Shown here: piece after piece, positions 38,761 through 59,244 of the stretch
Position numbering within the stretch: position 1 is the first letter of the stretch
Layout of the letters: every line of letters starts with the position of its first letter
Source of the DNA: Alicyclobacillus contaminans DSM 17975
Lineage (GTDB): Bacteria > Bacillota > Bacilli > Alicyclobacillales > Alicyclobacillaceae
Length of the DNA: 64,000 nucleotides
Reading direction: 5' to 3'
Assembly: GCF_000429525.1 (NCBI RefSeq)
Contig: NZ_AUCA01000004.1
Location: 1 to 64,000 of the forward strand
Notes under the pieces: model-generated
What the model saw: the letters and a program-made list of their open reading frames with translations, nothing else
Database searches by the model: none
Told to the model about the DNA's origin: nothing
Made by a program: the position numbers and the translations under genes

Positions 38761-38814
38761 AAATGAAGGGCTATTCAGTATCGGGAGAATCTGATAAGAT
38801 AGTACCTGAGAATC

Positions 38815-38830
38815 TACCGACCGGTCGGTA
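38815..38830. promoter_or_regulatory. Perfect 16-bp palindromic operator of the fad operon
   Basis: TACCGACCGGTCGGTA is a perfect palindrome 31 bases before the fadN start and 14 bases after a TAAGAT -10-like box (38795-38800). TetR-family fatty-acid regulators recognise ACCGACCGGTCGGT-type sites, so it is probably a repressor operator responding to acyl-CoA. Confidence 0.8.
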
Positions 38831-38860: not shown

Positions 38861-41266
38861 GTGGCGCGACAAATCCGCAAAGCGGGCGTGATTGGCGCTG
38901 GCGTGATGGGAGCGGCCATCGCGGCGCACTTGGCAAACGTCGGCATCCCCGTGGTTCTGTTGGACATTGTCCCGAAGGAACTGATGCCCGAGGAAGCCAA
39001 GAAAGGCCTGACGTTGGAATCGAGAGCGGTTCGCAATCGTTTGGCCCTGCAAGGTTTGGAAGCTGCAAAACGGGCGAAGCCCGCGTCATTTTTCTCGCCG
39101 GATGACGCTCTGTTGATTGAAGTGGGAAACTTGGAGGACGACCTGCAACGGCTCGGGGAATGTGACTGGGTGATTGAGGTCGTGGTGGAAAACCTGGCAG
39201 TCAAACAGCAGTTGCTTGCGAAGCTGGAGGGCGTCGTGCGTCCGGACGCCATTGTGAGCTCCAACACGTCTGGGATTTCCATCGCGGAGATGGTCAAAGA
39301 CCGCTCGGAGTCATTTCGAAAGCGGTTCCTCGGCACCCACTTTTTCAACCCACCGCGCTACATGAAATTATTAGAAATCATTCCTGGACCGGACACGGAT
39401 CCGGAAATCTGTACGTTCATGAAAGCGTTTGGCGAACGCGTATTGGGCAAAGGCGTGGTGTTCGCCAAGGACACGCCGAACTTCATCGCCAATCGCATCG
39501 GCACCTACGGTTTGTTGGTGACGTTGCAAGCGATGGAAAAATTCGGGCTCGGCGTCGACGAGGTGGACGCCATCACGGGACCGGTGATGGGACGGCCGAA
39601 AAGCGCCACCTTCCGCACACTGGACCTGGTTGGACTGGATACGTTCGTCCACGTGGCCAAGAACGTGCAGGCCTCCGTTTCCGATGAAGCGGAGAAGGCC
39701 GCCTTTGCCATACCTGACTACATTGAAAAGATGGTGCAGAACCGGTGGCTCGGAGAAAAAACCGGCCAAGGATTCTTCCGTCGCGTGCAGGGGGAGGGTG
39801 GAAAGGAAATTCATGCCCTGGACCTTGCCACGCTTGAGTACCGTCCGCGCAGGAAATTGAAATCCGCCGCACTGGACGCGGCCAAAAACGCGCCCGGCAC
39901 TGGGCGTAAAATCCGTACATTGATTCAGGGAAAGGACCCCGCGGCCCAGTTCGCTTGGGAAGTGCTCAAAAAGGTGTTGCTGTACACCGCTGAAAAGCAA
40001 ACGGAGATTGCGGACGACATCGTGGCCGTGGACAACGCGATGAAGTGGGGATTCAGTTGGGAACTGGGGCCCTACGAAACGTGGGACGCGATTGGCCTGG
40101 TGGAGTCTGTGGAACGGATGCGCACAGAAAGAGAGACCATTCCTTCCTTTGTCGAAGACCTGTTGGCCTCGGGGAAGACATCGTTCTATGATCGGAAACC
40201 CGGAGAAGTCCCCGGTTTCTACGTGGGCCGCGGTGAGTATCGCCAGGTGGAGGAACCCAAGGAACGAATTTCGCTGGCGCGCCTCAAAGAACAGGGCAAG
40301 GTGATTCGCAAGAACAACGGAGCCAGCCTGATTGACCTCGGTGACGGGGTGGCCTGTTTGGAAGTTCACTCTTTGAAACAGGCCCTCGGTGTGGATGTTT
40401 TGCAGATGGCCAACTTCGCTGCGGAAGAGGTGTCCGCCAACTGGGATGCTTTGGTGATTGCCGCAGAGGCCAAAAACTTCTGCGTCGGCGCGAACCTGGC
40501 GCTGATGCTGATGGAAGCCCAGGACGAAAACTGGGATGAGATTGAGCAGGCGGTTCGCTATACGCAGCAAACGTTCTTCAAACTGAAGTACCTGGATAAA
40601 CCGGTTGTGACGGCACCGTACGCGATGGCGCTCGGCGGCGGGCTCGAATTGACGTATGCGGGCACACACGTGCAGGCTGCGGCGGAGAGCTACCTGGGAC
40701 TGGTCGAGGTCGGTGTGGGCCTCATCCCCGGCGGCGGCGGCAACAAAGAACTGTTGATCCGCCTGACGGAAGGCGTGCCCAACCAGGTCAACGAGCGGTT
40801 GGACCAATTCGTCGCCAAAGCGTTTGAAACCATCGGCACCGCGAAGGTTTCGACGAGTGCGAAGGACGCCAAGAACCTGGGCTACCTGCGGGCGTCGGAC
40901 GGCATCAGCGTCAACCGCGACTATCAACTCTACGACGCCAAGCAGGCGGCGCTGGGGCTGGCCAAGTCGGGATTCCTGCGCAAACACCCGCAGAAGATTC
41001 CGGTCATCGGCGAATCGGGTGCTGCGTTGCTCAAAATGGGCGTTTACACCATGAAGATGAGCGGATACATTTCCGAGCACGACGAAAAGATTGCGAAACA
41101 ATTGATCCGCGTGCTCACCGGTGGCTCCGTTCCGCGCGGCACGCTGGTCACCGAGGAATACCTGCTGGATTTGGAGCGCGAAGCGTTCCTCAGTTTGATT
41201 GGCGAACCGAAAACGCAGCAGCGCATGCAGTACATGCTCACAAACGGGAAGCCGCTTCGCAACTGA
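38861..41266 (+). CDS. fadN: 3-hydroxyacyl-CoA dehydrogenase/enoyl-CoA hydratase (FadN)
   Basis: An 801-residue beta-oxidation enzyme. The dehydrogenase half has the NAD loop GVIGAGVMG at residues 9-17 and the catalytic His in [13 protein letters not shown] crotonase-like domain follows in the second half ([40 protein letters not shown]). This matches FadN (YusL) of Bacillus subtilis. The start is GTG behind GAGGAGGAT. It leads the fadN-fadA-fadE operon under the palindromic operator. Confidence 0.93.
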
Positions 41267-41294
41267 TGCGAGGGTGAATAGGAGGGAAATTCCT

Positions 41295-42476
41295 GTGAGA
41301 GAAGCAGTGATTGTCGCGGGTGCGCGCACAGCCATTGGTAAGGCTCCCAAAGGCACTCTCCGCAACACGCGTCCGGACGACCTGGGTGCGCTGGTGGTGT
41401 CCGATTTGCTCAAACGGGCGCCGCAGGTGGCTCCCGAAGACATTGAGGACATTATCATGGGATGCGCCATCCCGGAAGCGGAACAGGGCATGAATGTGGC
41501 TCGCATCATCGCAATGCGCGCTGGATTGCCAACCGCGGTGCCCGGCGTGACGGTGAATCGGTTTTGTTCCTCCGGTTTGCAAACCATCGCCATGGCTGCC
41601 CAACAAATCATGAGCGGCATGGCCGACGTGGTGATTGCCGGCGGGGTGGAGACCATGAGCTTGATTCCCATGGGCGGCTACAATCTGTCTCCGAACCCGG
41701 AACTCGTTGAGCACTTTCCGGAAGTGTACATGTCGATGGGCCATACCGCTGAGCAGGTGGCCTCGCGGTTTGGAATTTCTCGCGAAGACCAGGATGCCTT
41801 TGCTCTGCGCAGCCATCAACGGGCAGCGGCCGCCATTCAGGCCGGCAAGTTCAAGGATGAAATTGTCCCTGTGACCGTCAAACAGACGGTGATGGACCCG
41901 GACGGCAAGCCGGTGCAGAAAGAGGTTGTCTTCGACACCGACGAGGGCGTGCGCCTGGACACATCTTTGGAAGCTTTGGCGAAACTTCGCCCCGCGTTCA
42001 GCCTGAAAGGAACTGTGACCGCCGGCAATTCGTCTCAGACCAGCGATGGTGCAGCCGCCGTGCTCGTCATGTCGGCGGATCGGGCGCGCGAGTACGGCCT
42101 AAAACCGCTCGCGGCATTTCGCGCCTTCGCTGTGGCGGGGGTTGATCCGGACATCATGGGGGTCGGGCCGGTGGCGGCTGTGCCGAAGGCGCTCAAACTG
42201 GCGGGTTTGACACTGGCGGACATCGACCTGATTGAGCTGAATGAAGCGTTTGCGTCGCAGGCGCTGCATGTCATTCGAACGCTGGAGATGGATGAATCCA
42301 AAGTGAACGTGAACGGCGGCGCGATTGCGCTCGGCCATCCGCTCGGCTGCACGGGCGCGCGGTTGACCGTGTCGATTCTGAATGAACTCCAGCGTACCGG
42401 CGGCCGCTACGGCCTTGTCACCATGTGCATCGGCGGCGGCATGGGCGCTGCGGGCATTGTGGAGCGCATCTCTTAA
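41295..42476 (+). CDS. fadA: Acetyl-CoA C-acyltransferase (3-ketoacyl-CoA thiolase)
   Basis: A 393-residue thiolase. The nucleophile is Cys91 in [10 protein letters not shown]; the histidine is in [16 protein letters not shown] and the second cysteine in [11 protein letters not shown]. It releases acetyl-CoA in the last step of beta-oxidation. GTG 41295 follows AGGAGGG, 28 bases after fadN. Order and sequence match fadA (yusK) of Bacillus. Confidence 0.95.
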
Positions 42477-42532
42477 CGCCTGGCGAATCACGGGAGCGAC
42501 CGTCGAATGGCGGTCCAAAGGAGGAATCTCGC

Positions 42533-44305
42533 ATGAGCACGAAGGAACAGGAACTGACGAAAGGTGCTGCGTTTCTGATTGAGGACATCGCGCCGGAAAA
42601 AGTGTTCACCCCGGAAGATTTCAGCAAGGAACACCAGATGATTGCGGAGACCACGCGCCAGTTTGTCGAAGGTGAAGTGGTGCCGAACGCGGAACGACTC
42701 GAGCACCAGGATTGGGAACTGACCGTTCAATTGCTGCACAAGGCCGGGGAGTTGGGGCTGCTTGCGGCGGACATTCCGGAAGAGTACGACGGGCTTGGCG
42801 TGGACAAAGTGTCGTCGGCCCTGATCACGGAGTATATGACCCGCGGCGGATCGTTCGCACTCAGTCACGGCGCTCACGTGGGCATTGGAACATTGCCCAT
42901 CGTTTACTTCGGCAATGAGGAACAGCGGAAGAAGTACCTGCCGAAACTGGCGACCGGTGAATGGATTGCCGCGTATGCACTGACGGAACCCGGGTCCGGT
43001 TCCGATGCACTCGGCGCGAAGACGGTGGCGAAACTGTCGGAAGACGGAAAGTACTGGATTCTGAACGGCACCAAGCAGTTCATCACCAACTCGGCCTTCG
43101 CCGATGTGTTCGTGGTGTATGCGAAGATTGACGGCGAGAAGTTCTCGGCCTTCATCGTGGAGCGGACTTTCCCCGGTGTTTCCACAGGCGTCGAAGAAAA
43201 GAAGATGGGCATCAAGGCGTCATCCACCCGGCAGTTGATTTTGGAAGACGCCAAGGTGCCGGTGGAGAACCTGCTCGGAGAGCCCGGCAAAGGCCACGTG
43301 ATTGCGTTCAACATCCTCAACATCGGCCGCTATAAACTGGCCGTTGGCTGCGTCGGCGGGATGAAGGGCGCACTGGAAGTGGCGGTGAAGTATGCGAAGG
43401 AACGCAAGCAGTTCAAACAACCGATTGCGAATTTCCCGCTGATTCAGCAAAAGATTGCCAACATGAACATCAAGGCGTTCGTCACCGAGAGCATGGTCTA
43501 TCGGTCCACGGGAGATATCGACAAGCAATTGGACTCGCTCGGCGACCACATTGACGGTCGCACGGCGGCGAAAGCCATTGAGGAGTACGCGCTGGAATGC
43601 TCGGTGGGCAAAGTCTACGCGTCCGAGGCGCTCGACTACGTGGTGGACGAAACGGTGCAGATCTTCGGCGGTGCGGGGTTCATTCAGGATTATCCGGCGG
43701 AACGGATGTATCGCGACGCGCGGATCAACCGGATTTTCGAAGGAACCAACGAAATCAACCGCCTGATCATTCCGGCGACGCTGCTGCGCAAGGCGATGAA
43801 GGGTGAGCTTGCGCTGCTGCAGGCGGCGCAAGGCCTGCAGCAGGAGTTGCTGGGCGCGTTGCCGATGGTGGACGAATCGGAACTGCTTGGCGCGGAAAAG
43901 CACATGCTCGCGATGGCGAAGAAGATCTTCCTGTTCGTCGGCGGCAGCGCCGTGCAGAAGTACATGCAGAAACTTGAAGAGGAGCAGGAAATTCTCGCGA
44001 ACCTGGCGGACATCGTGATTGAAATCTACGCGATGGAAAGCGCCATTGCACGGACGCTGAAGGCGATGGAAGCGGGCAAAGACGCCGAGAACAAAGTGGA
44101 CATGGTGAAGGTCTATGTCCCGGAGGCGTTCGTTCGGATTGAGGGATATGCGCGTGAAATTCTGGCGGCCATGGAGGAAGGCGATGCCCTTCGGACACAG
44201 CTGGCGGTTCTGCGCAAGCTGACCCGATTCCAGCCGGTGAATTCCAAGGAACTGAAGCGCCGCATTGCGGCACGCGTCATCGAGGCGGAAAAGTACCAGG
44301 CCTAA
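42533..44305 (+). CDS. fadE: Acyl-CoA dehydrogenase (FadE type, long form)
   Basis: A 590-residue flavoenzyme, longer than the usual 380 residues because of a C-terminal helical extension of about 170 residues, as in FadE (YusJ). Family motifs are YALTEPGSGSDAL, FITNSAFADVFVVYA, and the catalytic base in RIFEGTNEINR. It oxidises acyl-CoA to enoyl-CoA and passes electrons to ETF. AAAGGAGG precedes ATG 42533, 56 bases after fadA. Confidence 0.94.
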   Translation: MSTKEQELTKGAAFLIEDIAPEKVFTPEDFSKEHQMIAETTRQFVEGEVVPNAERLEHQDWELTVQLLHKAGELGLLAADIPEEYDGLGVDKVSSALITEYMTRGGSFALSHGAHVGIGTLPIVYFGNEEQRKKYLPKLATGEWIAAYALTEPGSGSDALGAKTVAKLSEDGKYWILNGTKQFITNSAFADVFVVYAKIDGEKFSAFIVERTFPGVSTGVEEKKMGIKASSTRQLILEDAKVPVENLLGEPGKGHVIAFNILNIGRYKLAVGCVGGMKGALEVAVKYAKERKQFKQPIANFPLIQQKIANMNIKAFVTESMVYRSTGDIDKQLDSLGDHIDGRTAAKAIEEYALECSVGKVYASEALDYVVDETVQIFGGAGFIQDYPAERMYRDARINRIFEGTNEINRLIIPATLLRKAMKGELALLQAAQGLQQELLGALPMVDESELLGAEKHMLAMAKKIFLFVGGSAVQKYMQKLEEEQEILANLADIVIEIYAMESAIARTLKAMEAGKDAENKVDMVKVYVPEAFVRIEGYAREILAAMEEGDALRTQLAVLRKLTRFQPVNSKELKRRIAARVIEAEKYQA

Positions 44306-49951: not shown

Positions 49952-49980
49952 TTGACGATGCGCGGCCCATTCCCTAGACT
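49952..49980 (+). promoter_or_regulatory. Promoter of tetR-icmF operon
   Basis: TTGACG (49952-49957) and TAGACT (49975-49980) are 17 bases apart, a good sigma A promoter directly before the operator. Confidence 0.8.
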
Positions 49981-49985
49981 GAAAT

Positions 49986-50003
49986 TGAGCGAGCGCTCGG
50001 TCA
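49986..50003. promoter_or_regulatory. Pseudo-palindromic TetR operator at the start point
   Basis: TGAGCGAGCGCTCGGTCA is an 18-bp near-palindrome with one mismatched pair, lying at the predicted start of transcription. It suggests autoregulation by the TetR gene that follows. Its form resembles the fad operator at 38815-38830. Confidence 0.75.
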
Positions 50004-50015
50004 GGAGGGGTGTGC

Positions 50016-50684
50016 GTGGGCGTTCAAATCGGCAGCAATGTGAAAGACCCGGAACGGATTCGAGAACGCCGTCGGCAGATTGTGGAAGCTGCCGTGCAAC
50101 TGTTTTCGGAGAAAGGGTTTCACAAGACCACCACACGCGAAATTGCTCGCGCCAGCGGTTTGTCCAACGGTGCGCTGTACGAGTACGTCACGTCCAAGGA
50201 GGACATTCTCTTTCTGGTCTGTCAACACATCCACCAGGAGATCTTCAGCCGGCTCGCCCAAACGGTGACCACGGCGACCCATGGTGCGGAGAGACTCAAA
50301 ACGGCCATCGAGGGCCTGTTTGACGTCATGCACGACATGCAGGCGGACGTTCTGTTGATTTACCAGGAGGCGAAGTCTCTGCCAAAGCTGTACCTGACGG
50401 AAGTGCTGCGGCACGAGCAGGAGATTGTCGCTTGGTTTGAACAGCAGCTTCGTCATGGCGTCGCGGATGGGACGCTCGGGATATCAGAGGAGCAGATTCC
50501 TCTCCTGGCACAGGATATTGTGGTGATGGGACAGATGTGGGCGTTTCGACGTTGGGCCTTGAAAGGGATTTCATTTTCGCAATTTCGCGAACTGCAAATT
50601 CGCATGCTGATGGCGGCAGCCAGCGGATCCACCGCTTCGGCCGAGGTGTCGGCACAGTCTGGGAGAAGGGGGACTTTGCAATGA
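50016..50684 (+). CDS. TetR-family regulator of icmF operon
   Basis: A 222-residue regulator. The helix-turn-helix at about residues 17-60 reads [46 protein letters not shown], typical of TetR. The C-terminal helical domain has no clear ligand signature. GTG 50016 follows AGGAGGGG. The stop overlaps the icmF start as ATGA, so both are coupled. It probably represses its own operon through the operator and may also act on the fad operon. Confidence 0.88.
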
Positions 50685-53600
50685 CGAGTTCCATGGAACA
50701 AATGGACAGGGTGTCGCAGGTCGCGGACCTCTCATCGGAGAGGGCCGCAGAACCGTGGGGGCAAACGCAGGAGCGACAGCCGTACCGGCCCAAGCATCCG
50801 GTTCGGTTTGTGACGGCGTCCAGTCTGTTTGACGGGCACGACGCGTCCATCAACATCATGCGCCGGATTCTGCAGGCAACCGGCGCTGAAGTGATTCACC
50901 TGGGACACAACCGCTCTGTCGACGAAATTGTAAGCGCTGCCATTCAAGAGGACGCGCAGGGGATTGCGGTCAGTTCGTATCAGGGCGGGCACGTCGAGTT
51001 CTTCAAGTACATGTACGACCTTCTTCAAGAGCGCGGGGCATCGCACATCCGGATATTCGGGGGCGGAGGCGGCGTCATCGTTCCCGAAGAAATTGCGGAG
51101 CTTGAGGCGTACGGCATCGCCAAGATCTTTTCTCCCGACGATGGCCGCCGGCTTGGTCTGCAGGGGATGATCAACCACATGATCCGCGTCTGCGACGAGG
51201 CCCTGCCCTGCGACCCTGACTCGTTGCTCAGGGAATTGTCGACAGCGGCGCCGCATGCGATGGCGCGATTGGTTACGTATGTCGAACAGACGGCGGAGGA
51301 CAACCCTGCTCTGCATGCGCTGCGGACTCAGCTGGACGCGAAGGCTCGGGCGGTTCCGGTGGTGGGCATCACGGGCACCGGCGGCGCCGGGAAATCCTCC
51401 CTCACCGATGAGCTGGTGCGGCGGTTCCTGCGCGATTTTCCCGACAAGACCATCGCCATCTTTTCTATCGATCCTTCCAAACAAAAGACGGGCGGTGCGT
51501 TGCTCGGGGATAGGATTCGCATGAATGCCATTCACCACCCGAACGTCTACATGCGCAGCTTGGCGACCCGCTCCGCAAAAGGGGAGTTGTCCGCCGCCAC
51601 CAGAGACGCCATTCGCTTGGCCAGGGCGGCCGGATTCGACCTGGTGCTGGTGGAAACCAGCGGGATTGGTCAGGGCGACGCGGACGTGGTGGATGTGGCG
51701 GACGTCTCGCTCTACGTGATGACCGCAGAGTACGGGGCGCCCTCCCAGTTGGAGAAGATTGATATGTTGGACTACGCCGATCTGGTGGCCATCAACAAGT
51801 TCGACCGGCGCGGTTCGGAGGATGCCCTGCGCTATGTGAAAAAGCAGGTCCAGCGCAACCGCAACGCATTTGCGCAGCCGGTCGAGGCAATGCCGGTGTA
51901 CGGAACAGTGGCGAGTCAGTTCAACGATCCTGGGGCGAACGTGCTCTACCGGGCTCTGATAGACACCATCAATCGCAAGTGCGGTACCGACTGGCAGAGC
52001 CAGCTCGAGGTGGGGCAGGCGTCGGATCGCAAGCGAGCCATCATTCCTGGAGAGCGTTCGCAATACTTGCTGGACATTGTCAACACGGTGCGCAAATACC
52101 GGGAGCGCACGGAGAAACAGGTAACATGGGCGCGGCGCGCGTACCAGCTTAAAGGTGCACTGCAGGTGATGCGGGAGCGTTCGACGCCGGAGTCGGTGAC
52201 TCATGCGCTGGAAGCGGCCTATGAAGAGACGTGGCGGGTGTTGGAGCGGGACGTGCAGGAAATCATCCAGGGCTGGCAGGAGAAGAAGGCGCGGTACAAG
52301 GCGGACGAGTTGGTGACGTCCGTGCGCGGCCGTGAAATCCGCAGTCCGTTGTACACCACGTCGCTGTCCGGCACGCGGATTCCGAAAGTCTGCTTGCCGG
52401 ACTACGAGGACTGGGGAGACATCGTCAAGTGGTCGCTCAAGGAGAACGTGCCGGGCGAGTTTCCGTACACCGCTGGCGTGTTTCCACTCAAGCGGACGGA
52501 AGAAGAGCCGAAGCGTCAATTCGCTGGGGAAGGCACGCCGGAGCGGACCAATCGACGCTTCCACTACCTCTCCCAAAACGATACGGCCAAGCGTTTGTCG
52601 ACTGCGTTTGACAGCGTGACGCTCTACGGCGAGGATCCGGATGTACGGCCTGACATTTACGGAAAAATCGGAGAAAGCGGCGTCAGCATCTGCACCCTGG
52701 ACGACATGAAGAAGCTGTACGCGGGCTTTGACCTGTGCGCACCCAACACCAGCGTGTCCATGACCATCAACGGCCCGGCACCCATCCTGCTGGCGATGTA
52801 CATGAACACGGCAATCGATCAACAGGTGGAGAAGTTCGTGGCGGACACCGGCCGTCAGCCGACCGCCAGCGAGTACGAGGAGATTCGTGAACGGACCCTG
52901 CAGACGGTACGGGGCACGGTCCAGGCCGATATACTCAAGGAGGATCAGGGGCAGAACACGTGCATCTTCTCGACCGAATTCGCTTTGCGGATGATGGGCG
53001 ACATCCAACAGTACTTCATTGACCACAAGGTGCGCAATTACTACTCGGTCAGCATCAGCGGCTACCACATTGCGGAAGCGGGCGCCAATCCCATCACCCA
53101 ATTGGCGTTCACGCTGGCGAACGCGTTCACGTATGTGGAGTACTATGTCAGCCGGGGCATGCACATCGACGACTTTGCGCCGAATCTCTCCTTCTTTTTC
53201 AGCAATGGGATGGATCCGGAGTATACGGTGATTGGCCGCGTGGCGCGGCGCATTTGGGCGACGGTGATGCGCGATCGGTACGGTGCGAACGAACGCAGTC
53301 AAAAGCTGAAGTATCACATCCAGACGTCCGGCCGCTCCCTGCACGCACAGGAAATCGACTTCAACGACATTCGGACCACGCTGCAGGCGTTGATTGCCAT
53401 CTACGACAACTGCAACTCGCTGCACACCAACGCCTACGACGAAGCCATCACCACTCCGACGGAGGAATCGGTGCGGCGGGCGATGGCCATCCAGATGATC
53501 ATCAATCGCGAGTTTGGTTTGGCCAAGAATGAAAATCCTCTGCAGGGAAGTTTCATTGTTGAGGAACTGACCGACCTGGTGGAGGAAGCTGTGATGCAGG

Positions 53601-54019
53601 AATTCCTTCGCCTGAACGACCGAGGCGGTGTGCTCGGCGCAATGGAAACACAATACCAACGCAGTAGGATACAGGAAGAATCATTGTACTATGAGGAACT
53701 GAAACATTCTGGCCAATTGCCCATCATCGGGGTCAACACGTTCATCAATCCGAAGACGCTCGCCCCCGACTACCAGCCTCCGAAGGTGGAACTGGCCCGC
53801 GCTTCACAGGAGGAGAAACAGCAGCAGATTGAAAATCTGCGGCGTTTCCACGAGGCGCATCGGGACGAAGCTCCTGCGGCGCTGCGGCGATTGCAGGAGG
53901 TGGCGCAGCGGGGAGACAATATCTTCGCAGAACTGATGGAGACGGTAAAGGTGGCGAGTCTGGGGCAGATCACGCACGCGCTGTACGCGGTGGGCGGAAA
54001 ATATCGCCGAAACATGTGA
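50681..54019 (+). CDS. icmF: Fused isobutyryl-CoA mutase IcmF (B12-dependent)
   Basis: A 1112-residue fused mutase. The B12-binding domain comes first, with base-off motif [11 protein letters not shown] (His53), then SSYQGGH and GGGGGV. A G3E-type GTPase chaperone (MeaI) follows, with P-loop GTGGAGKSS at 232-240 and [12 protein letters not shown]. The C-terminal half is the TIM-barrel mutase ([49 protein letters not shown]). It interconverts isobutyryl-CoA and n-butyryl-CoA, linking valine breakdown with fatty acids. The operon ends in a strong hairpin at 54033-54065. Confidence 0.96.
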
Positions 54020-57933: not shown

Positions 57934-59244
57934 GTGCCAGACTTGGGGACATTCATCACGCAAACTGACGGACGCTTTGCCGTCCATCTTCTGTCCACCG
58001 ACAAATTTCGCACGCGGTACCTCGCATTGAAAGTGGCCCGGCCGCTCCATCGTCAACACGTCACCGCGTTGGCGATGTTGCCTTACCTCTGGATGCAGGG
58101 TACAACCACGCTTCCTTCGGCCAGGGAGGTGCTCCGTTACGCCGACTCCCTGTTCGGCGCCTCGGTTCGGACGCTCATCCAGCGGCGGGGGCATCAGCAG
58201 GTGCTCGAGGTTCAGGCCACCGCGCCGGAAGTTGGGACGTTCAACGGCGCAGACGCGGTGCTGGAAGAATTGGAGTCATTGGTAATTCAACTGGCGGTGA
58301 ACCCGGCCCATACGGGGGACGCGTTCCCAAGCGACCATGTGGAGCGCGAAAAAACGCTGCACGAGCGGCGGATTCAGAGCGTGTTCGACAACAAAATTAC
58401 ATACGCGCTGGAACGGTCCTGGGAGGCGGCGTGCGCCGGACAGCCGGTGGGGCTGCCTCGTTTGGGGTATCGGGAAGACCTCCGGGCGCTGACCGCGGCG
58501 TCGCTGTGGTCATTGCAGCAGGAGGTGCTCGCCGAATCGGATGTACACTTTTACGTGGTGGGCAAGCTGCACGATGAGCCATCGGTGGCGGCGAAGATTC
58601 TGAACCGGCTGCGGCAAGCGTTCGGAGACCACGGGCGAGGCGCTGCGGGAAGTCCCGTTCATGCGTTGGCGGTCCGTCGCGGCGAGGTTCAACAGGTGGT
58701 CGAGAAACAGCGCGTCCAACAGGGAAAATTGAATCTCGTTTTTCGAACCGGTGTGTCCTATGGAGACGACGAGTACGTTCCGCTGCTGTTGGCCAATGGC
58801 GTGCTCGGCGGTTTCCCCCACTCGAAGTTGTTCATGAATGTGCGCGAAAAGGCGAGTTTGGCGTACTATGCGTCGAGCATGCTCGACGGACTGACCGGAC
58901 TTGCCGTGGTCCAGACCGGCATCGAAACGGCCAATCGCGACAAGGCGTACGACATCATTCGCGCGCAGGTCGATGCACTGCAAGCGGGGCAGGTCACCGA
59001 CGATGAACTGGAATTCACCCGACGAGGATTGACCAATCAATACCGGCAGGTTCTAGATCAACCGGCGTCCCTGGCGGAGATTCACTTCAGTGCGACGCTG
59101 GCCGGCGTGGAGCGAGACGTCGAGCGGCTGATTCAGCAAATCGGCGAGGTGGACAAAGCAGCGGTGGTGGACGCGGCCTCCCGCTTCTCACTCGACACCG
59201 TGTATTTTCTGACCAGCGATGCGGAGGTGACCACAGGTGCGTGA
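57934..59244 (+). CDS. M16-family protein, YmfF-like (zinc site absent)
   Basis: A 436-residue protein of the pitrilysin fold. The HxxEH zinc motif expected near residue 50 is replaced by PYLWMQ, so it is probably not catalytic alone. The C-terminal half keeps the YASSML and LTNQYRQVLDQP segments of the family. It is paired with the active-looking partner that follows, as in Bacillus ymfF-ymfH. The start is uncertain: GTG 57934 and TTG 57943 both have possible sites. Stop and next start overlap by eight bases. Confidence 0.85.
   Translation: MPDLGTFITQTDGRFAVHLLSTDKFRTRYLALKVARPLHRQHVTALAMLPYLWMQGTTTLPSAREVLRYADSLFGASVRTLIQRRGHQQVLEVQATAPEVGTFNGADAVLEELESLVIQLAVNPAHTGDAFPSDHVEREKTLHERRIQSVFDNKITYALERSWEAACAGQPVGLPRLGYREDLRALTAASLWSLQQEVLAESDVHFYVVGKLHDEPSVAAKILNRLRQAFGDHGRGAAGSPVHALAVRRGEVQQVVEKQRVQQGKLNLVFRTGVSYGDDEYVPLLLANGVLGGFPHSKLFMNVREKASLAYYASSMLDGLTGLAVVQTGIETANRDKAYDIIRAQVDALQAGQVTDDELEFTRRGLTNQYRQVLDQPASLAEIHFSATLAGVERDVERLIQQIGEVDKAAVVDAASRFSLDTVYFLTSDAEVTTGA

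Follow-up and report, generated by a model that had tools for sequence, protein, structure and literature searches.

A conserved palindrome before fadNAE in Alicyclobacillus contaminans is a predicted TetR-type operator, probably of a PfmR-like repressor

The fadN-fadA-fadE operon of Alicyclobacillus contaminans DSM 17975 is preceded by a perfect 16-bp palindrome, TACCGACCGGTCGGTA (here termed the fad box), which is separated by 30 bp from the fadN start codon, a GTG at 38861, in the 64,000-nucleotide stretch of DNA that we analysed (the window). From sequence comparison the fad box is, with high probability, a TetR-type operator that is read neither by FadR, the regulator of the equivalent genes in Bacillus subtilis, nor by the TetR protein encoded with icmF elsewhere in the window. 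The complete reading, which we favour with more reserve, is that the fad box is the operator both of fadNAE and of a fadF-like gene, that its likeliest repressor is a TetR protein resembling Thermus PfmR and encoded on contig C13 of the same genome, and that this repressor would be released by a ligand. The features to which we refer are collected in Table 1.

Table 1. Location of the features discussed; coordinates are those of the window unless prefixed by a contig (C) or locus (L) label
Feature	Coordinates	Strand	Basis or remark
Extended -10 of fadN promoter (predicted), TG-A-TAAGAT	38792..38800	+	Alignment of 11 promoters
fad box TACCGACCGGTCGGTA, predicted TetR operator	38815..38830	.	Perfect 16-bp palindrome and conservation
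fadN, hydroxyacyl-CoA dehydrogenase/enoyl-CoA hydratase	38861..41266	+	NCBIfam FadB-type model, full length, 568 bits (below cut-off of 999)
fadA, acyl-CoA thiolase	41199..42476 (open frame; model from residue 33)	+	NF005805, 641 bits (cut-off 633)
fadE, acyl-CoA dehydrogenase	42425..44305 (open frame; model from residue 46)	+	NF058590, 974 bits (cut-off 600)
tetR-icmF promoter (predicted), TTGACG-17-TAGACT	49952..49980	+	Promoter prediction
Operator of icmF TetR, TGAGCGAGCGCTCGGTCA, distinct in type from the fad box	49986..50003	.	TGAGCGAGCGCTCAGTC type, 26 of 27 loci
TetR of icmF operon, unlikely to read the fad box	50016..50684	+	Sequence comparison
icmF, fused isobutyryl-CoA mutase	50681..54019	+	NF045497 equivalog, 1953 bits (cut-off 1500)
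PfmR-like TetR (C13 TetR)	C13:409-993	-	Adjoins mcsA, mcsB, clpC
PaaR-like TetR (C51 TetR)	L042:5134-5703		Adjoins paaA gene

A single 16-bp palindrome in 64 kb is unremarkable. Two perfect ones were found in the window against 1.25 expected, and the 14-mer ACCGACCGGTCGGT has eight matches there within three mismatches against a shuffled mean of 4.8; the significance of the fad box is therefore not evident from the window alone, but follows from its conservation across genomes. (The other perfect palindrome, GTCGAGCATGCTCGAC, lies at 58872-58887.) Of 59 genomes of the order, 14 contain the exact 14-mer and 1 contains the reversed control. A survey by coordinates covered 53 of the 56 fadN-bearing genomes (in G044, G045 and G053 the upstream DNA could not be read); within two mismatches the 14-mer precedes fadN in 27 of the 40 that belong to the window's family, taken to be Alicyclobacillaceae, and in 0 of the 13 from the sister family. 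Twenty-five of the 27 family boxes were tabulated and read CTACCGACYGGTYGGT, apart from one row that differs by one base. Whilst the window counts, and the presence of near-identical boxes within a gene of the metallo-beta-lactamase fold, could be taken to mean that the palindrome arose by chance or through a coincidence of coding sequence, the fad box is intergenic and is retained in many genera upstream of two distinct beta-oxidation genes, and we find such an origin scarcely credible. The preliminary description of this DNA, which had singled out a perfect palindrome upstream of the fad operon, is accordingly borne out: the site is present, is conserved, and bears the hallmarks of a repressor operator.

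As to the metallo-beta-lactamase-fold gene itself, the box-like stretch lies within its coding sequence at C18:50136 (L046:6137) in A. contaminans and in L159, L163 and L326. These boxes look like a coding coincidence (a Pfam check was made on the A. contaminans copy only) and were rejected as operators.

Alignment of 11 fadN promoters identifies a predicted extended -10 element directly 5' of the fad box, in which TG (38792-38793 in the window) is invariant and the hexamer (TAAGAT, 38795-38800, in the window) reads TATGAT in 7 of the 11. A consensus promoter scan of the window did not report this fadN -10, because no good -35 element lies upstream of it. With a conserved TG and -10 directly on its 5' side, the box is therefore predicted to lie just past the start point. 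The site TGAGCGAGCGCTCGGTCA at the icmF promoter is likewise just downstream of a predicted -10 element, and the earlier statement that both sites lie at or just after the start points holds, with the fadN and icmF start points taken as predicted positions.

The fad box also points to a second target. A scan of 12 genomes with a degenerate form, ACCRAYYRRTYGGT, gave 44 sites, compared with five for the reversed control, and of these 11 are at fadN and a further 11 at a gene for an iron-sulphur protein that has CCG and Fer4 domains (11 of the 12 genomes). Ten copies of this gene are 71-90% identical to that of A. contaminans, before which the box lies at C8:77255-77270, 20 bp 5' of the start. 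We term the gene FadF-like because FadF (YwjF) of B. subtilis is described, in the passages available to us, as a reductase that binds iron-sulphur and belongs to the FadR regulon (PMC2743287, PMC4525379); the two are matched by description. A FAS1-type dehydratase gene (in G000 and G001), a short-chain dehydrogenase gene (G000) and etfB (G041) account for four further sites, and 18 are not at these named genes, some of them falling in coding sequence.

In B. subtilis, fadNAE and fadF are known to be repressed by FadR (PMC4525379, in the part consulted), and A. contaminans possesses a full FadR (268 bits, cut-off 200), whose gene has TGAATGACAATTCATTCA upstream and etfB downstream. It might thus be proposed that FadR, with altered specificity, reads the fad box. 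However, at all 30 fadR promoters read in this family the FadR box TGAATGANNNNTCATTCA stands unchanged (at most one mismatch), the region upstream of fadN in the window contains no FadR box within three mismatches, and a FadR match is missing from two genomes that have the fadN box (G002 and G041). On the evidence of the unchanged box at fadR we rejected a FadR of drifted specificity as the reader, and consider it highly unlikely. One of the 30 fadR promoters contains a stretch within three mismatches of the fad box, and among the sites examined FadR in this family keeps only the fadR promoter. With the FadR box kept at fadR and the fad box at fadN and fadF, fadNAE and fadF so appear to be under another TetR, and fadR-etfB under FadR. 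The arrangement resembles the B. subtilis FadR regulon as described (PMC4525379) in its targets (fadNAE and a FadF-like gene) and in the predicted TetR type of its repressor, but differs in that the operator there is TGAATGANNNNTCATTCA, read by FadR, whereas fadN here has another operator and another predicted repressor.

A different regulator had been put forward in the preliminary description, which regarded the fad palindrome as related to the icmF operator and proposed that the TetR at 50016, or a close paralogue, governs both operons. The pattern on which this was founded, CGANCGNTCGGT, is indeed common to both window sites, the genes concerned are 11 kb apart, and the TetR is found in 21 of the 27 box-bearing family genomes. 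However, the operator could be compared at 27 of 30 icmF-TetR loci (L176, L178 and L181 were left out), and among these 27 promoters the shared pattern is confined to that of the window; 26 of them, the window included, carry the conserved operator TGAGCGAGCGCTCAGTC (reversed in the sister family), which differs from the fad box. Seventeen other family icmF operators end in CTCAGTC, and that of the window in CTCGGTC. Six box-bearing genomes (G009, G019, G023, G024, G025 and G037, the last only 62% complete) have no match to the icmF TetR at E<=1e-20, and this protein scores 31.9 bits against PfmR. Nor did a scan of the A. contaminans genome for the icmF motif, a check the preliminary description had suggested, favour a wider role: the lone additional site within two mismatches lies in an amino-acid permease gene, and three more were found at three mismatches. 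Operator conservation, together with the box-bearing genomes that lack the TetR, led us to reject the icmF TetR as a common regulator; that it or a close paralogue reads both sites is improbable in the extreme. The notion of a paralogous regulator survives only in a broad sense, in that another TetR of this genome, not close kin of the icmF protein, is the better candidate.

A profile search of the A. contaminans genome returned ten TetR_N matches, of which the C13 TetR is, in our assessment, the probable reader of the fad box. It aligns with PfmR of Thermus thermophilus (TTHB023; structure 3VPR, PMC10636190, as given in the portion seen) over nearly the full length at 97.5 bits, and when the TetR proteins of the genome were ranked against PfmR it came first (95.8 bits), followed by the C51 TetR (79.6), FadR (44.6) and the icmF TetR (31.9); kinship is here judged by pairwise homology scores. 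Like the proposed reader, PfmR belongs to the TetR family; its published sites, in the sections available, have the form TACCGACCGNTNGGTN, often lie over the start point and serve fatty-acid genes, and one of them, CCTACCGACCGGTCGG, has the tightest KD in its promoter table, 0.3 nM (PMC7022988). The suggestion that the fad box be compared with fatty-acid TetR sites of Thermus proved well founded: TACCGACCGGTCGGTA fits the PfmR operator form, the box of the window reads TCTACCGACCGGTCGG, one base from CCTACCGACCGGTCGG, and fad boxes share the PfmR-type trait of standing at fatty-acid genes (fadN and the fadF-like gene) near the predicted start point.

The distribution of the C13 TetR is consistent with this assignment. 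Its orthologs are found in 26 of 41 family genomes, including 25 of the 27 that bear the box as against 1 of the 13 that do not, although this co-occurrence is worth about one independent loss, because the FadR tree places in a single clade the seven sampled genomes that lack both C13 TetR and box (a further five without both are outside its sample). At 8 of 30 loci the C13 ortholog has near-boxes, such as ACCAACCGGTCGTT, upstream of its gene. Counted in a fixed stretch, from which 5 of 30 C13 and 4 of 30 icmF-TetR loci dropped out, they occur at 6 of 25 C13 loci against 1.1% of shuffles, and at 2 of 26 icmF-TetR and 1 of 30 FadR loci, which is suggestive, and no more, of an autoregulation-type site. 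At the promoter of the A. contaminans C13 gene itself the best fad-box match has four mismatches. Further exceptions are G009, with boxes at fadN and fadF and no C13 ortholog, the 62%-complete G037, with a two-mismatch box and no C13 ortholog, and G033, with the ortholog and no fadN box. Unlike pfmR, the C13 gene is in neither a fatty-acid nor a phenylacetate operon; a gene that we take to be ctsR lies between it and mcsA-mcsB-clpC. The likeness to PfmR has other limits: Thermus is of another phylum, pfmR stands first in an operon of ten fatty-acid and, according to its authors, phenylacetate genes with sites of its own (PMC7022988, in the sections available) whilst C13 adjoins mcsA-mcsB-clpC, and a near-box at the own gene is seen in only some C13 orthologs. 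It is these exceptions (G009, G037 and G033), the single phylogenetic event, the four mismatches at the own promoter and the existence of other TetR proteins that hold the C13 assignment at the level of probable.

Another TetR of the same genome, namely the PaaR-like C51 TetR, C54, C15, C5 or C10, could read the fad box instead, an alternative that we hold to be unlikely but that has to be taken seriously. G009 has its boxes without a C13 ortholog, the C51 TetR ranks second against PfmR, and in Burkholderia cenocepacia, according to the passages at hand (PMC2770484), an inverted repeat identical to the 14-mer ACCGACCGGTCGGT is needed for negative control of paaA and is the site through which PaaR acts. 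That system, however, concerns phenylacetate genes in a proteobacterium, and the PaaR-like C51 group of our own survey has an operator of its own, the palindrome AAGCAAGCGCTTGCTT, within three mismatches at the promoters of 18 of 20 homologs (all but those of G002 and G041); the group also occurs in genomes without a fad box, for example G007 and G018. The presence of AAGCAAGCGCTTGCTT at its own promoter led us to reject the C51 TetR as the reader. FadR, the icmF TetR and the PaaR-like TetR each have a separate, conserved operator. The comparison of promoter footprints comprised the C13, FadR, icmF TetR and C51 groups. The reading frame of the C54 TetR (L026) runs into an apparent hotdog thioesterase-type domain, named by eye, and that of a further TetR, C7 (L032), has only 147 residues and is perhaps truncated or frameshifted.

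Taking the PfmR-like C13 TetR as the reader, a dimer would sit on the fad box just past the extended -10 element and, by analogy with PfmR and from the position of the box, would when bound stop initiation or promoter escape at fadN and fadF. An acyl-CoA or a related intermediate would release it, and FadR would go on controlling fadR-etfB through its own box. In this scheme the fad box, its position and conservation, its recurrence at fadF, the missing FadR box at fadN and the separate operators of the other TetR proteins are read from the sequences, and the identity of the reader, the repression and the ligand are what we infer. Among the matches listed in a literature search, none dealt with the regulation of fad genes in Alicyclobacillus, which is a weak negative.

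Three different operators have been met at the fadNAE operon in Bacilli. In addition to the fad box and the FadR box, a third palindrome, TTGACYRATCAGTCAA, precedes fadN in 12 of the 13 sister-family genomes (L251-L253, L268-L274, L276 and L278); it resembles the published Thermus SbtR consensus, TGACYrnnyRGTCA, as quoted in the portion of the source seen. Among 80 named fadN loci, nine have the fad box (six Alicyclobacillus, one Alicyclobacillaceae and two Bacillota MAGs), 48 the FadR box TGAATGANNNNTCATTCA and one the motif TTGACYRATCAGTCAA, the remaining 22 having none of the three. At fadN, the fad box of the Alicyclobacillaceae thus occupies the place of the FadR box of many other bacilli.

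Two further arrangements were observed. In ten genomes with neither C13 TetR nor box (G006-G008, G010, G014-G018 and G020; L255-L264) the end of a FadF-like gene lies directly 5' of fadN, and in the seven of these that were read at fadR a FadF-like gene starts divergently from fadR, the FadR box lying between the two. In G041, which has no FadR match, a fad-type box, ACCAACCGGTCGGT, lies before etfB (L333:1119), a gene that in A. contaminans follows fadR; the peroxiredoxin-like gene upstream in the G041 locus has no match in the fadR locus of A. contaminans.

These observations may be the outcome of a turnover of regulators, in which fadNAE and fadF of this family left FadR for a PfmR-like TetR whilst fadR-etfB stayed, two acyl-CoA sensors splitting one pathway between them; we put the chances of this at about even. 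If it is true, it would represent a readable case of regulatory rewiring, in which one set of catabolic genes is controlled by FadR in many bacilli and by a PfmR-like repressor in Alicyclobacillaceae, with one clade apparently under FadR again, and would provide a likely function for an orphan TetR carried by 26 of 41 genomes of the family.
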